Below are positions 51,793-57,569 of a DNA stretch of 64,000 bases, in pieces. A program made the translations under genes and the position numbers. Source of the stretch: Vreelandella boliviensis LC1 (GTDB lineage Bacteria; Pseudomonadota; Gammaproteobacteria; Pseudomonadales; Halomonadaceae); NCBI RefSeq assembly GCF_000236035.1, contig NZ_JH393257.1, forward strand, positions 656,472-720,471, written 5' to 3'. The first letter of the stretch is position 1, and each line of letters starts with the position of its first letter. The notes under the pieces are model-generated. The model saw only the letters and a list, made by a program, of their open reading frames with translations. It ran no database searches and was not told the origin of the DNA.

Positions 51793-53553
51793 CTAATATA
51801 CTAGCTGGCCGATACTGCCCGCAAAGCGCTGCTTATTTCGATAAGGGTAGACATCAATAACACGGCCATCGATGATCGCCTGCTGCAGTTCCAGCCAGTA
51901 ATCCGGGTCGAACAGCTCTGGGTGTTGCTCTATAAACAGACGGCGCAGCGCCGGATTAGCGAACATAAAGGGCCCGAACTCCTCCGGAAAAATATCGTTA
52001 GGACCGATGGATAACGTATCGCCCCCCTGGAAGTCATTGCCATAGGATTTAGGGATATGCCGGAAACGGCATTCGGTGAGATAGCAGACTTCATCATAGT
52101 CGTAGAAAACCACCCGGCCGTGGCGCGTCACGCCAAAGTTTTTTAGCAGCATATCACCGGGAAAGATATTCGCTGCGGCCATCTGCTTAATGGCATTGCC
52201 GTAATCTTTCAGAACCATGAGCGTCTCTTCGTCGCTGCAGTGCTCCAGGTAGATATTCAGCGGCGTCATCATGCGCTCGGTATAACAGTGTTTGATGATG
52301 ACTTTGTCGTCTCTAAGCACCACCGTCGAGGGCGCCACCTCCAGCAGATGGGCTAAACACTCGGGGGAGAAGTGATCTTGGCGAACAATAAAGTTTGAAA
52401 ACTCCTGGGTGTCAGCCATGCGCCCTACCCGGTCGTGGCGCTTAACTAGCCGATACTTTTCGCGCACCACGGCGTGGGTAACGTCTTTGGCCGGGTCGAA
52501 TTTATCTTTAATGATCTTAAATACAGTGCGAAAGCTGGGCAGCACAAACACCGCCATCACCATGCCACGAACGCCTGGGGCGATAATAAACTGATCTTCG
52601 CGTTTCGCCACTTGACGGTTCAACGCCCGGAAAAACTCGGTTTTACCATGTTTGAAAAAGCCGATTGCAGCGTAAAGTTCGCCTTCCGGTTTGTGCGGCA
52701 TTAACTGCTGTAGGTAATCGACAAACTCCCTGGGCACCGCCACCTCAACCTGAAAGTAGGCGCGGGTGAAGGAGAAAATAATCGACACCTCGTCGGTTTC
52801 GATCAGCACCGTATCAAGGTGTAGGCAGGGGTCGCCGCCCTGCTGCTCACCAAATCCCTCGCCGTGAAGCACGGGCAGTACCAGCGGCACCTGTTCGCCA
52901 CCGCCACGGATACGCCCCACTAGGTAAGCGCCTTTATTGCGATAAAAGACGCTATTTAGCAGCTCGATTTCAGTGTCATCGGCGTTCAAAATCGCCGCTG
53001 GTAAGTGCTGATGTAAAAACGTTGCGCCTAACTGGGTATCTCGAGTGATATCGGCAAAGCGATTATCCAACGGGGCATCGAAAAGCGCCCACTCGAGCGC
53101 CGCCTGCCAATCGCCGTTAACCTTGTGACGACGACACAGTTCAATCCCTGAGCGATGGGCGGCATCCTCCCGGGAGCTATACACAAACATCCAGTCGTTA
53201 CGGATATGGCGGTGGTGGAAAATGGCGCAGAACAGCGAGTTAAAGAAGGTTTCCGCCAACTCATAATCGAGCCGATGGCTGATCAGTTCGGCGTAGTGGT
53301 TGCGCGCCTCTCGCCAGCACTCGCAGTGAGAAACCACCTCGGGATCAAAGGTACGCTTTAAGCGCCCCAGAGTGACGTTGATTTTTTCCTGATAGAGATT
53401 GATACGCTCCGCCGAAGCCAGTTGGGTATCACGCCACGCCGCGTCACGAAAGCGTCGGCTCGCATCCGCCGTGATCTCTTTAAAACGCGCACGGTACTCA
53501 TCGAAGCCATGCAAAATCGTCGTCGCTAAGCGGTACGCAGGTGAGTGTTTCAC
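51793..53553 (-). CDS. aceK: Isocitrate dehydrogenase kinase/phosphatase
   Basis: 586 residues, the usual AceK length, from a GTG with AGGAG 7 nt upstream. Family segments include LFCAIFHHRHIRNDWMFVYSSR, FKHGKTEFFRALNRQ, FIIAPGVRGMVMAVF (ATP loop), NIFPGDMLLKNFGVTRHGRVVFYDYDEVC and IFPEEFGPFMF. It switches isocitrate flux between the TCA cycle and the glyoxylate shunt. No aceA or aceB is nearby. Confidence 0.97.
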   Translation of the reverse strand: MKHSPAYRLATTILHGFDEYRARFKEITADASRRFRDAAWRDTQLASAERINLYQEKINVTLGRLKRTFDPEVVSHCECWREARNHYAELISHRLDYELAETFFNSLFCAIFHHRHIRNDWMFVYSSREDAAHRSGIELCRRHKVNGDWQAALEWALFDAPLDNRFADITRDTQLGATFLHQHLPAAILNADDTEIELLNSVFYRNKGAYLVGRIRGGGEQVPLVLPVLHGEGFGEQQGGDPCLHLDTVLIETDEVSIIFSFTRAYFQVEVAVPREFVDYLQQLMPHKPEGELYAAIGFFKHGKTEFFRALNRQVAKREDQFIIAPGVRGMVMAVFVLPSFRTVFKIIKDKFDPAKDVTHAVVREKYRLVKRHDRVGRMADTQEFSNFIVRQDHFSPECLAHLLEVAPSTVVLRDDKVIIKHCYTERMMTPLNIYLEHCSDEETLMVLKDYGNAIKQMAAANIFPGDMLLKNFGVTRHGRVVFYDYDEVCYLTECRFRHIPKSYGNDFQGGDTLSIGPNDIFPEEFGPFMFANPALRRLFIEQHPELFDPDYWLELQQAIIDGRVIDVYPYRNKQRFAGSIGQLVY

Positions 53554-53624
53554 GGGCCAGGCTCCTGATCATTTTTACCAGTTTCGCGTAACCTGAAACT
53601 ACATACGAGACGACCTTGGTGGTG

Positions 53625-55193
53625 TTAGTGCGCTGAGCTCAGTAACGCCATTAACGGCGCCACCTCGTCCGGGTCAGCGAGTGCCGTTGCCACTTTGGCA
53701 ATCTCTTCTGAAAGAGGCCGATCTTTCTTAAGCGGCGGCGCATACTCGCGCACCCAGGCGCAAAGCATTCGAGAGGCGTGGCTCAGCAGGTGTGCATTTT
53801 TTAACTCAGCCCCCTGTGCCAGCACCAAAGTTTCAATTGCTAACACTTGGTAAAGCTGCTCTAAGCTTGTGCTGGCACGCCTTGCGGCGATGGTGCCCAG
53901 AGGGACGATATCTTGGTTATCGGCATTGGTGGGGATCGATTGAATAGAAGCGGGCATGGCATGGCTGCGCAGCTCAGCTACAAGCGCTGTTGCGCTGACC
54001 TGCGCGCCCATAAAACCGCTATGTAAGCCGGTGTCGAGGGGCTGCATAAACGCAGGCAATCCTTTATTTTTCAGTGGATCTGTAATCCTGGCAATACGCC
54101 GTTCGCTGTAAAGCGCCATCTGAATAAGCGCATTGTTGAGACTATCACTGGCGAAGGCGAGCTGCTGGCCAAAAAAGTTGCCCCCGTGAAGGATAAGGTC
54201 ATCATCGGCCAGCAGCAGTGGGTTGTCCGTAACTGCCTCCAACTCAATACGCACGGTCTGAGCGTGCTGCTCGACTACGTCCCAAACGGCACCCAAAGCT
54301 TGCGGCGCGCAACGTAAGGTATAGGCATCTTGGGGTAGCGGCCGGTGCTGCTCAATACCGTTGTGCATATCCGGCAGCGATGTGGGAACCCGCTGCCAGG
54401 GAGTTAATGCAGCACTATCTTCAGAGAGCGACCAAAGCCAGTGGTGCAGCTGCTGCTGGCCAGGGTGCGGACGCAGCTCACCAATAGCGGGGTGAAAGGC
54501 TTCGCGATGCCCTTCCAACAGTTCGGCGTAAAGCAGTACCAGTAACGTGCTGAGCTTTAGCGCCCGTTGCGCAGCGGTGGCGTTCAAGGCAGCAATACCG
54601 GCCGTGGTCGACGTTCCATTAACCAGCGCGATAGCGTCTTTACCCTGCAACAACAGCGGCTTCCAGCCCAACTGTTGATGCGCCTCGCCACTGTCTATCC
54701 AACTGCCCTCACGCAGGCTAACCCTTCCTTCACCACTGAGTGCTCGTGCTAAATGCGCCAGCGGGGTTAAATCGCCGCTGGCGCCCACCGTGCCACGCGA
54801 CGGCACTTCAGGCACCAAATCGACCTCTAGCCAGGCCTGCAACCGTTCAACCAGCACAGGATTGGCACCCGAGTGACCGCGCACTAAACTGGCCAGGCGC
54901 GCTACCATCATCGCGCGCGCATGGCGATGCGACAGCGGCTCGCCAACACCGCTGCACAAGTGATAGACCAAATTCTGCTGCAGCAACGCCGACTGTTTGG
55001 GATCCACATCGGTGGTCGCCAGCGGCCCGTATCCAGTTGTCACGCCATAGATTCGCCGACGTTGCTCGATGGCCTTGCATAAAAAGGCGTGGGCCTTTGC
55101 CACCGCGTTTTTTTCGGCTAAGGATAGTGTTATCGACTGTCGCCCCAACGCGATCCGTTCAATTTCTTCAAGCGAGCGACGCCCATCATCCAT
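53625..55193 (-). CDS. Tyrosine ammonia-lyase for p-coumarate synthesis
   Basis: 522 residues of the aromatic amino acid lyase family. The MIO cofactor tripeptide Ala138-Ser139-Gly140 is in GTVGASGDLTPLAHLAR. The catalytic tyrosine is Tyr49 (IYGVTTGYGPLA). The selectivity position reads QNLVYHLCSGVG, with His78-Leu79. In this family His-Leu marks tyrosine ammonia-lyases (His89-Leu90 in Rhodobacter sphaeroides TAL), while histidase has Ser-His. All three landmarks are offset by the same 11 residues from RsTAL. It deaminates tyrosine to p-coumarate, the PYP chromophore precursor. It is followed by aceK and preceded by the ligase (36 nt). AGGAAA lies 8 nt before the ATG. Confidence 0.92.
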   Translation of the reverse strand: MDDGRRSLEEIERIALGRQSITLSLAEKNAVAKAHAFLCKAIEQRRRIYGVTTGYGPLATTDVDPKQSALLQQNLVYHLCSGVGEPLSHRHARAMMVARLASLVRGHSGANPVLVERLQAWLEVDLVPEVPSRGTVGASGDLTPLAHLARALSGEGRVSLREGSWIDSGEAHQQLGWKPLLLQGKDAIALVNGTSTTAGIAALNATAAQRALKLSTLLVLLYAELLEGHREAFHPAIGELRPHPGQQQLHHWLWSLSEDSAALTPWQRVPTSLPDMHNGIEQHRPLPQDAYTLRCAPQALGAVWDVVEQHAQTVRIELEAVTDNPLLLADDDLILHGGNFFGQQLAFASDSLNNALIQMALYSERRIARITDPLKNKGLPAFMQPLDTGLHSGFMGAQVSATALVAELRSHAMPASIQSIPTNADNQDIVPLGTIAARRASTSLEQLYQVLAIETLVLAQGAELKNAHLLSHASRMLCAWVREYAPPLKKDRPLSEEIAKVATALADPDEVAPLMALLSSAH

Positions 55194-55229
55194 AGCAGTA
55201 TTTCCTGTCTAGAAGCTTGCTTTATACAG

Positions 55230-56360
55230 CTACCAGTCGGTTAGCTTGCCCAGCGCATTAGTGGGCAAAGCATCTCCATAAGTAACCCCAACGGGGCGCT
55301 CTGCGGCAGGCCACTGGGCGGTGGCTTGCGCTATTGCGCTAGCGGTTTCCTGCTTGCTGATCACAGGTACCACAAAGGCCTTCAAACGCCGTGTTGTGGT
55401 AGGCCCCGTGGTACGTATCGCACACTCGGCCACGCTTTCCAGCGCACGCAAGCGCTCGGCCACATGCTGGGGGCTGACGTTAACGCCACCGATTGTCACC
55501 ACGTCATCGTGACGCCCCAGAAGCGTAAAAGTGTGTTCGTCGTACCAGTGGGCGTTATCCAGCAGCGGTATGGCGATGTGGCTATTAACGCCCTGAATGT
55601 GCTGCGTATCGGCGCGTTGCCAATGGGCTAACAGTCGATAAGGCTCATCCTTCTGCCAGCGGGTGGCGACACCGCCGGTTTCGGTGCTGCCGTAAATCTC
55701 CAGCAGCCCGGTTAGCCCACCTGCGATCAACGCATCTGAGGTGTCGGCAGAGAGCGGTGCGGTCGAAGATACGCCGACGACATTGGCGGGCCAACCGTTG
55801 CGTGAACGGGCTAAATAGTCCCAGCGGGGCGGAACCGTAACCACTACATCACCAGCCGTTAAGGCCGGCAGCATTGCATTGTCGGCACTAATGCGCGGAA
55901 TACCCAGCACACTGGGTAGCGCCACGCCCAGCATAAAGCCATACAGGTGGTGCAGCGGTAACCAGCTAATCACGCGGTGTATCGGCGCTCGCGAAGCAAA
56001 GCGCTGCATCAAGGCATGCGCCTCGGCTTCAATATCTTCCCAGCGGTATAAATGAGCGGTAGGTGATCCAGTGCTGCCCGAAGTTCTAAACGTTAGCCCT
56101 GAGGTTTCAGTGATGGCCCGCGCCACTAAGGAGGCCCAGTCATCAAAACTTTGGGTCATTAACAGGCGGTCTTCGGCACCTGTTTCGTGTAAACAGAAGA
56201 ACTCGTTAACACAAGCAGCGAGGTGAAGTCGTTCGAGGGAATCGATAGCCGGTGTATCCTGCCAATTTGGCGCGGAGGTACCCCGATAAACAGCCAGTTC
56301 TGCACTCAGCAATGATTGCAGAACCGCCTTGCAATCGGCTTCGCTTAGCCACTGAGGCAT
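55230..56360 (-). CDS. p-Coumarate ligase (short AMP-binding enzyme) for PYP chromophore activation
   Basis: 376 residues, much shorter than general acyl-CoA synthetases but similar to pCL enzymes of PYP clusters. The phosphate loop is FRTSGSTGSPTAH (residues ~91-103), the A5-like motif LLEIYGSTETGG, the hinge/A8 region LLGRHDDVVTIGGVNVSPQH, and the A10 lysine LPTNALGKLTDW. It would activate p-coumarate as the CoA thioester for attachment to PYP. The assignment rests on the position between the TAL and pyp genes; it could otherwise be an orphan adenylating enzyme. AAGGA lies 7 nt upstream of the ATG. Confidence 0.85.
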   Translation of the reverse strand: MPQWLSEADCKAVLQSLLSAELAVYRGTSAPNWQDTPAIDSLERLHLAACVNEFFCLHETGAEDRLLMTQSFDDWASLVARAITETSGLTFRTSGSTGSPTAHLYRWEDIEAEAHALMQRFASRAPIHRVISWLPLHHLYGFMLGVALPSVLGIPRISADNAMLPALTAGDVVVTVPPRWDYLARSRNGWPANVVGVSSTAPLSADTSDALIAGGLTGLLEIYGSTETGGVATRWQKDEPYRLLAHWQRADTQHIQGVNSHIAIPLLDNAHWYDEHTFTLLGRHDDVVTIGGVNVSPQHVAERLRALESVAECAIRTTGPTTTRRLKAFVVPVISKQETASAIAQATAQWPAAERPVGVTYGDALPTNALGKLTDW

Positions 56361-56445
56361 CTTTTTATCCTTAACTATTATCCTTAACTACGTGTCTAGA
56401 CTCGCAAGAAAAATTGTTCAGTTCAAGCGCCAGGCCACCCACCCC

Positions 56446-56501
56446 CTGTTAACCACTCTCTGTTAACCACTCTCTGTTAACCACTGAGTATTAACCGTTG
56501 A
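56446..56501. repeat. Four 14-bp tandem units downstream of the pyp stop
   Basis: Units start at 56446, 56460, 56474 and 56488. The first two are identical (ctgttaaccactct), the third differs at its last bases and the fourth is degenerate. The array begins 20 nt past the pyp stop (minus strand). A second small duplication (tatccttaacta twice) lies at 56369-56393, ahead of the ligase gene. Confidence 0.88.
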
Positions 56502-56521
56502 GCAAGCGGCCTATTGAAAGG

Positions 56522-56905
56522 TTATAAACGCTTAACAAAAATCCAATAGGTATCACCTGAAATAGCTTTTTTCATATGCACTTTTACTTTCGTAGGCGTC
56601 ATCTGGTAGTCAAAAACGTATTCAAACATTGTATTGAGCTCGCCACTACTAACGCCTTCTTTAAAGCGGCCCTGAAACTCTTTGCTTTGCGTGCAGGGTG
56701 CTACCTCGGTAAAGAAGTTTTTACCGATCACGCTTTTGGGGTCTCGCCCGGTAATGCCGCCTTCCGCTGCGTTGTATTGAATAATTTTACCGTTGGCATC
56801 CAACTGGATAGCCCCGAAAGCTAGCTCATCGAGTTTTTTGTCATCCATTTTCGCCAGTGAATTTTCAATATCGTCGCCACCAAAGCGAACCGTTTCCATA
56901 GCCAT
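56522..56905 (-). CDS. pyp: Photoactive yellow protein (blue-light receptor)
   Basis: 127 residues, a PAS-fold photoreceptor with clear, near full-length similarity to the Halorhodospira halophila PYP. Chromophore-pocket residues are all kept: Tyr44, Glu48, Thr52, Arg54, the chromophore cysteine Cys71 ([10 protein letters not shown]) and Met102, each shifted by +2 from the standard numbering. The shift arises from the start MAMETV. AGGAGG sits 7 nt before the first ATG, so that start is preferred; the second ATG would give exactly 125 residues. It binds p-coumarate as a thioester and undergoes trans-cis isomerisation in blue light. The output partner is not known in most species. Confidence 0.97.
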
Positions 56906-57012
56906 TACTACACCTCCTGATTGAACGTATGGCAGCCGTTTCGAACCGCCAGAAGCTCTACAAATCTACCACGAAGATCGTTAATATTTAAATATCTGTA
57001 GAACCTATCAGT

Positions 57013-57018
57013 ATTATA
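57013..57018 (-). promoter_or_regulatory. Possible -10 box of pyp
   Basis: TATAAT on the minus strand, ~108 nt before the pyp start, in an AT-rich 160-nt spacer after the CIA30 gene. No good -35 is visible at 16-18 nt, so an activator or another sigma factor may be needed. The palindrome ATATTTAAATAT lies between it and the gene. Confidence 0.35.
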
Positions 57019-57065
57019 TTACTAAGGCAACCAACTACTACTATTGGATGGTATTGATACTATTT

Positions 57066-57569
57066 TCATCTTTTACAAAGCACTACGTTTATCGCACTTA
57101 CCTGCAAACAGAAAGGCCCTGCAGTGCGGTCTGCAATTAAGAAACCGAGTTGGTGAATCTCGCTTGGCGTTACTGCGGGGGCATCGCCAAGTAGCGTGCC
57201 ACGCCTTACCGCCTCAAAGGCGCTCCAGGGGAAGTACAGCGTCTCCCAGGCATCTCGAGAAGGTGTAAATTTCACTCGGTATGCTGATGCATTGCCAAGG
57301 GAGGTACTTTTCAGGCGCAGTTGATAGGTGCGGCCATCACCCCGCACGGTTAGCACTACGCCCTGGGCATCCGCTAGCGTTGTTTCAAAACTGTTGGGCT
57401 CACGGCGAACGGATGCAAAACCACCGCCGTTTTCCAACGACACCTCGCCATGAAACCGGCCTTCACCTTTGATAACGCTAAACCTACTCTGGGAAACCCC
57501 GCCCATGACACCATCGTCGACGGAGTGCCAGCGCTGCTGTTCACTAGGATCATTAAAGTTCAGCGACAT
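57066..57569 (-). CDS. CIA30-family protein (NADH:ubiquinone oxidoreductase intermediate-associated domain)
   Basis: 167 residues. The CIA30 jelly-roll-like domain spans the whole protein: WHSVDDGVMGGVSQSRF near residue 14, GRFHGEVSLENGGGFASVRR, then GDGRTYQLRLK and WETLYFPWSAFEAVRRG, ending IHQLGFLIADRTAGPFCLQV. Bacterial members are small, cytoplasmic and of unknown function. It lies 160 nt upstream of pyp on the same strand. Co-occurrence with the PYP cassette could be incidental. GAGG lies 7 nt upstream of the ATG. Confidence 0.88.
   Translation of the reverse strand: MSLNFNDPSEQQRWHSVDDGVMGGVSQSRFSVIKGEGRFHGEVSLENGGGFASVRREPNSFETTLADAQGVVLTVRGDGRTYQLRLKSTSLGNASAYRVKFTPSRDAWETLYFPWSAFEAVRRGTLLGDAPAVTPSEIHQLGFLIADRTAGPFCLQVSAINVVLCKR

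Follow-up and report, generated by a model that had tools for sequence, protein, structure and literature searches.

A photoactive yellow protein cassette in a fixed, often empty chromosomal slot of Vreelandella boliviensis and its relatives

The photoactive yellow protein (PYP) of Halorhodospira halophila is encoded in an operon together with a p-coumarate:CoA ligase (pCL) and a tyrosine ammonia-lyase (TAL), in the order pyp-pCL-TAL (PMC12826048, section 8). Which signaling partner single-domain PYP acts on has long been missing from the picture, as two papers point out (PMC12826048, PMC9664959). Here we describe a PYP cassette in a 64,000-nucleotide stretch of Vreelandella boliviensis LC1 (contig NZ_JH393257.1, positions 656,472 to 720,471; hereafter the window). 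The three genes and their order are those of H. halophila, and all residues of the PYP chromophore pocket are shared with that species. Differences lie in the host, which to judge from its genus is not a purple phototroph, in two additional N-terminal residues of PYP, and in the chromosomal site, between genes for a CIA30-family protein and AceK. We consider it likely that this is a pyp-pCL-TAL operon giving holo-PYP, carried as a portable module in one slot and acting on a signaling partner that is probably encoded elsewhere.

Cassette genes and predicted chromophore pathway

An earlier note on this DNA had read three consecutive minus-strand genes as PYP, p-coumarate ligase and ammonia-lyase, and open reading frames (ORFs) and family matches agree with these calls at the same places (Table 1). 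The cassette spans 56905 to 53625 in the direction of transcription, with pCL and TAL directly downstream of pyp. The window PYP scores 212 bits against TIGR02373 (curated cut-off 143), aligns end to end with solved PYP structures in the PDB (E 1e-65), and, counted from the PDB alignment, shares 98 of 125 residues with H. halophila PYP. Its first ATG, 7 nt past a GGAGG ribosome site, accounts for the N-terminal extension. The pocket residues I33, Y44, E48, T52, R54, F64, V68, A69, P70, C71, F98, M102 and W121 are invariant in all 18 PYPs encoded between CIA30 and aceK and in the six other PYPs of the genus. Thus, Tyr42, Glu46 and Cys69 (Y44, E48 and C71 in the window numbering) plus ten further residues are found in 24/24 genus PYPs.

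The ligase matches TIGR02372 (4-coumarate--CoA ligase) with 313 bits over model positions 45–385 of 386, and the next family reaches 51 bits. Its A10 lysine is kept in 23/23 ligases and a serine-rich AMP-binding motif is also present. Speaking against the assignment, the score falls short of the curated cut-off of 334.7 bits. The lyase scores 489 bits against Pfam Lyase_aromatic, and its MIO triad and tyrosine-type HL pair are kept in all 13 lyases compared, with the frameshifted TAL of genome G017 left out.

If the lyase were instead a histidine ammonia-lyase, the cassette could not build its chromophore from tyrosine. The top NCBIfam scores of the window lyase are indeed to histidine ammonia-lyase models, but it stays below their cut-offs (443.8 versus 524 bits, and 432.6 versus 539 for TIGR01225). 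The closest solved chains, 2o6y and 2o78, both bear the molecule name "Putative histidine ammonia-lyase"; we take them to be R. sphaeroides TAL and its H89F mutant. A separate lyase of the same genome (G000 C4, its end interrupted by unread bases) passes the hutH cut-off (611.6 versus 539), carries LSH where the window lyase has HL, and has neighbors that, judged by eye, resemble hutD, a GntR regulator and a formimidoylglutamate deiminase. Moreover, 14 of 82 genus genomes encode a lyase with 70% identity or more to that of the window. All 14 are PYP-bearing (one copy frameshifted, in G017), which amounts to 14/23 PYP-bearing versus 0/59 PYP-less genomes (Fisher p 4e-10, ignoring kinship). The lyase therefore appears not to be the histidine enzyme, and we regard that alternative as hardly credible.

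Judged from gene calls, families and invariant residues, the locus is of the known pyp-pCL-TAL operon type, with the complete predicted gene set from tyrosine to holo-PYP and every key pocket residue that the earlier note had listed. TAL would convert tyrosine to p-coumarate, pCL would activate p-coumarate as a CoA thioester, and the thioester would load Cys71 of PYP, yielding a yellow receptor for blue light whose pocket resembles that of H. halophila PYP.

The cassette is probably read from its own extended -10, sigma70-type promoter. The layout TTGNNN, 14 nt, TGN, TANNNT lies upstream of 22 of 24 genus pyp genes (all except those at loci L052 and L053), a count inflated by relatedness, versus a mean of 0.28 and a maximum of 3 in 500 dinucleotide-shuffle rounds. 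It recurs at 5/5 Alkalimonas and Rheinheimera loci and is not seen at Halochromatium. Two observations weigh against this promoter: the layout was not found at seven of nine pyp loci in other genera of the family (it is present at L140 and L141), and the -10 hexamer of the window, TAGGTT, is weaker than those of its relatives. Control of pyp by CarH/LitR was considered and set aside. By eye, TTGTA-like repeats 11 bp apart occur in several pyp upstream regions, but the window lacks this palindrome, and the sole B12-binding_2 match in the genome, in a search limited to that domain, is a 1238-aa frame that we presume by its length to be MetH. At L031 and L032, TTGTA or TACAA repeats with this spacing stand upstream of the -35 box; at many loci between CIA30 and aceK, pairs resembling TTGTA are found past the -10 instead.

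Table 1. Features of the PYP cassette and its borders in the window
Feature	Position	Strand	Characteristics
CIA30-family protein; standing upstream neighbor, outside cassette	57066..57569	minus	PF08547
Putative sigma70-type promoter, extended -10	57002..57030	minus	TTGCCT, 17 nt ending TGA, TAGGTT
PYP gene (pyp)	56522..56905	minus	127 aa, single PAS-type domain; TIGR02373 match
pCL, p-coumarate:CoA ligase, short ANL enzyme	55230..56360	minus	376 aa; TIGR02372 match, below cut-off
TAL, tyrosine-type aromatic ammonia-lyase	53625..55193	minus	522 aa; Lyase_aromatic; MIO triad A138-S139-G140, selectivity pair H78-L79
Conserved aceK leader; downstream cassette edge	53554..53624	minus	core in 30/35 cassette-free gaps and 17/18 filled slots
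aceK; standing downstream neighbor, outside cassette	51793..53553	minus	NF002804, 735 bits

One slot, filled or empty, between CIA30 and aceK

Of 82 genomes in the genus, 23 encode PYP above cut-off, compared with 9 of 193 from other genera of the family. Named Halomonas and Vreelandella genomes likewise encode it. Eighteen of these 23 genomes hold the cassette between CIA30 and aceK, 11 with TAL (frameshifted in G017) and seven without. In the window, the CIA30 gene and an ethanolamine permease gene flank the cassette upstream, and aceK and a Sir2 protein gene flank it downstream. The same slot is empty in 34 genomes, where CIA30 directly precedes aceK with 39–163 bp between the matches; 30 of these have no PYP above cut-off and four have PYP at other sites. 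A sirtuin gene follows aceK at 18/18 filled loci, the loci examined for it.

Ahead of aceK, 47 of 53 genomes examined retain a leader of approximately 70 nt with the core CCAAGGTCGYCTCG, cassette present or not. Five of 35 cassette-free gaps lack it, namely those of G036, G037, G042, G047 and G051. The 35 are the 34 empty slots plus the gap of G072, which is occupied by 1.1 kb of other DNA and is listed apart from the empty slots. An Rfam scan of the window returned one tRNA above gathering scores and no match for the leader. By eye, the leader begins shortly past the stop codon of whatever gene precedes it, indicating that the cassette comes and goes near gene borders, with aceK and CIA30 as standing neighbors. 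At one locus (L250, G003:C14:149800-152200), an IS607-type transposase and a TnpB-like gene lie between TAL and aceK. A search for plasmid-borne PYP gave 12 records, the best 69% identical and none from Halomonas.

These comparisons bear on where the signal of PYP might go. The earlier note was right that no chemoreceptor, cyclase or kinase adjoins the cassette, its direct neighbors being CIA30 and aceK, and had named aceK, the sirtuin and the CIA30 protein as possible signaling partners. The constant synteny of these neighbors with the cassette in 18 genomes would favor such a role. However, 34 genomes have CIA30 next to aceK and no cassette between them, and 30 of these lack PYP above cut-off; CIA30 is found in 58/82 and aceK in 74/82 genomes of the genus; and different genes surround the six PYP loci that lie at other sites in the genus. 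Because CIA30 so often directly precedes aceK, the three genes, of which CIA30 and aceK were traced across the genus, are best seen as standing neighbors, and a partner among them is quite improbable.

To follow the cassette through the genus, we used an aceK tree of 59 of the 74 aceK-bearing genomes, in which 27 of 55 inner branches are well supported. All 18 filled slots fall in one clade of 50, interspersed with empty or CIA30-less genomes, and parsimony explains cassette presence with 10 changes, or with 13 losses if a single gain is assumed. In a joint PYP, pCL and TAL tree, restricted to TAL-bearing loci and including the longer piece of the frameshifted G017 TAL, the 11 TAL-bearing slot cassettes form one group (92/92). 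A second PYP lineage of the genus is separate (100/100), and Alkalimonas, Rheinheimera and one other halomonad are placed nearer the slot group with weaker support (84/87). Mantel correlations with aceK distances were 0.58 for pCL, 0.83 for TAL and 0.30 for PYP, with CIA30 (0.53) and sir2 (0.89) as yardsticks. This partial agreement fits mostly vertical descent and is also compatible with exchange. Most likely, then, the cassette entered the CIA30-aceK slot once in the genus, after which it would have been lost many times, or exchanged with empty alleles, while the neighbors stayed. A point against a single origin is that the tree that gives it includes none of the seven TAL-less slot cassettes. 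On the whole, the cassette's behavior is that of a portable input module.

Loss of TAL has a pattern of its own. The seven TAL-less slots correspond to five subtrees, hence five losses, on the aceK tree. Six of the seven genomes carry one or two lyases 33–38% identical to the window's. The seventh, G044 (99% complete), has no lyase match to the window's at all, and the same is true of G039, which has PYP and pCL at another site. As G044 shows no aromatic lyase, it would need p-coumarate from outside. Mean pN/pS (nonsynonymous over synonymous differences) at the 18 slot loci was 0.042 for PYP, 0.24 for pCL, 0.14 for TAL, 0.12 for aceK and 0.26 for CIA30, ratios that are rough, with synonymous sites near saturation and the frameshifted G017 TAL left out. 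PYP had the lowest value of nine genes compared, followed by eutB (0.056). At the seven TAL-less slot loci, means were 0.041 for PYP and 0.23 for pCL. PYP and pCL are thus under purifying selection also where TAL is gone. Repeated loss of TAL with PYP and pCL retained suggests that some relatives rely on outside p-coumarate or on another lyase. Uptake of p-coumarate was already suggested in PMC12826048 (section 8).

Signaling partner and output

Since the cassette fills and empties one slot while its neighbors stay, its signaling partner is probably encoded elsewhere in the genome. We tentatively favor flagellar chemotaxis as the output, perhaps via a sensorless chemoreceptor encoded beside cheW and cheA, at somewhat less than an even chance. 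Looking for a phototaxis system, we found no chemoreceptor or Che gene among the direct neighbors of the 18 slot loci; such linkage was seen at L031 and L032. Signaling genes are close to PYP at four of the six non-slot loci of the genus. At L031, the pyp locus is followed by genes for a methyl-accepting chemotaxis protein (MCP), CheB, CheR and CheA. L032 has an MCP gene and, approximately 3 kb further, one for a GGDEF/EAL protein. At L033, one small ORF separates the locus from genes for a GGDEF response regulator and a hybrid kinase, and L053 lies near a histidine kinase gene and, by tblastn and by eye, response regulator genes. As to the other two, the L044 contig ends just behind TAL, and at L052 only the ligase was scanned. 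Among the 80 nearest of 138 relatives found (named genomes, about a quarter of them from the window's genus; 13 of the 80 loci incomplete), 15 have a signaling gene within 5 kb by tblastn with eight probes.

The PYP at L053 (G025:C2) is a second, divergent copy (76% identity); neither pCL nor TAL was matched in the 20 kb examined there. Directly upstream of the PYP-Che locus at L031, two ORFs of 1666 and 1387 aa (L031:10509-19717, minus strand) have only SPOR and weak HEAT matches.

The window genome encodes flagellar FlhA, two CheA proteins and about 23 receptors. One of these receptors (G000 C1, L079:13788-15110, minus strand) is a 440-aa protein with HAMP and signaling domains and, by eye, two short membrane segments. 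Its ligand domain is a stump below the Pfam cut-off, and its gene adjoins cheA and a cheW named by eye. Xing et al. propose a receptor of this architecture as PYP partner (PMC9664959). Sorted by bit score, flagellar-type FlhA and CheA each occur in 22/23 PYP-bearing versus 48/59 other genomes. Matches to the first 130 residues of the sensorless receptor (at least 130 bits; several contain a stop, taken to precede the true start) occur in 21/23 versus 44/59 genomes (p 0.13), or 65/82 overall.

Several observations count against the chemotaxis reading. The association of PYP with flagellar genes falls short of significance (Fisher p 0.16). The sensorless receptor is common without PYP (44/59 genomes) and was not found in G025, which has PYP at other sites, or in G045; being frequent with and without PYP, it is not tied to PYP. 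In G045, whose PYP is identical to the window's, flagellar FlhA and flagellar CheA also went unfound. All three genes lie within 14 kb in G000, such that one gap in the 230-contig G045 assembly could hide them together; unless sequence is missing at that place, G045 speaks against phototaxis. Finally, no convincing flagellar sigma28 promoter lies upstream of the window pyp, and control by sigma28 was rejected: the best site has 4 mismatches of 12, with shuffles averaging 3.9, and L042 and L043 reach 2.

A more specific version of the chemotaxis reading is that PYP, a soluble light receptor, would serve as a plug-in sensor docking on the host's sensorless chemoreceptor, which the host already owns for other inputs. 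Docking on a resident receptor would explain how a three-gene cassette comes and goes without a partner gene moving along, yet we think this version doubtful. Three other leads to the partner were rejected. A 272-aa MCP considered as the sensorless receptor has a frame interrupted by unread bases. Eleven of the 23 genomes with PYP lack the second, non-flagellar CheA by our reading of the matches. PYP fusions gave no guide, the longest open frame around PYP at the 80 loci being 283 codons from stop to stop.

The output could alternatively be cyclic di-GMP: lit PYP would act on a GGDEF/EAL protein encoded elsewhere and hence on biofilm, as reported for Idiomarina loihiensis. GGDEF/EAL genes lie near two of the six non-slot PYP loci of the genus (L032 and L033) and, according to section 8 of PMC12826048, in 29 published pyp operons; this route also fits G045. 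However, the direct neighbors of the 18 slot cassettes are CIA30 and aceK (once an IS607-type element), and at 13 named slot loci GGDEF or EAL matches were found 6–7 kb upstream in six. We rate cyclic di-GMP clearly below chemotaxis. Our remaining expectation, beside chemotaxis and cyclic di-GMP, falls to another two-component or further route. The six loci are L150, L151, L154, L155, L156 and L160; in each, GGDEF, EAL or both are matched approximately 6–7 kb upstream of pyp and on its strand.

Comparison with other PYP cassettes

Because closely related genomes differ in whether this one slot holds the cassette, the genus offers a ready genetic test of the role of PYP, and the empty slots strike the neighbors from the list of partner suspects. 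Relatives that lost TAL may need outside p-coumarate, or another lyase, to see light. Our literature search, in which subscription journals were mostly not covered, found no paper on a PYP slot between CIA30 and aceK, and the words Halomonas, CIA30, aceK and sirtuin were not found in the main text of PMC12826048.

Of the 80 nearest relatives, 76 have pCL within 1 kb of PYP and 44 have a lyase within 5 kb, which reaches 45% identity or more in 27. Dohmen et al. give TAL in 7 and pCL in 42 of 113 inferred pyp operons (PMC12826048); that set spans the family and counts operons while ours consists of the nearest PYPs. What follows is only that the pyp-pCL-TAL cassette is common in this PYP branch.

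The cassettes of Alkalimonas and Rheinheimera resemble the window's in order, with pyp followed by pCL and TAL, and in sequence (PYP 86–88%, pCL 61–65% and TAL 75–79% identical), but have different chromosomal neighbors. The second PYP lineage of the genus (G021, G025 and G038; also G039) shares the order pyp-pCL-TAL, except that G039 lacks TAL. It differs in its pCL (54–56% identical), in forming a separate clade (100/100, G039 not in the tree) and in its sites, where signaling genes adjoin three of four loci and the fourth ends at a contig border. The PYP of I. loihiensis is single-domain like the window's, and named Idiomarina relatives are 71–78% identical. Its reported output is biofilm (PMC12826048, Table 1), whereas the window cassette has no directly adjoining GGDEF gene. 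Collectively, the kind of cassette is already known from these systems, and its fixed, often empty slot in this genus points the search for a partner away from the neighboring genes.

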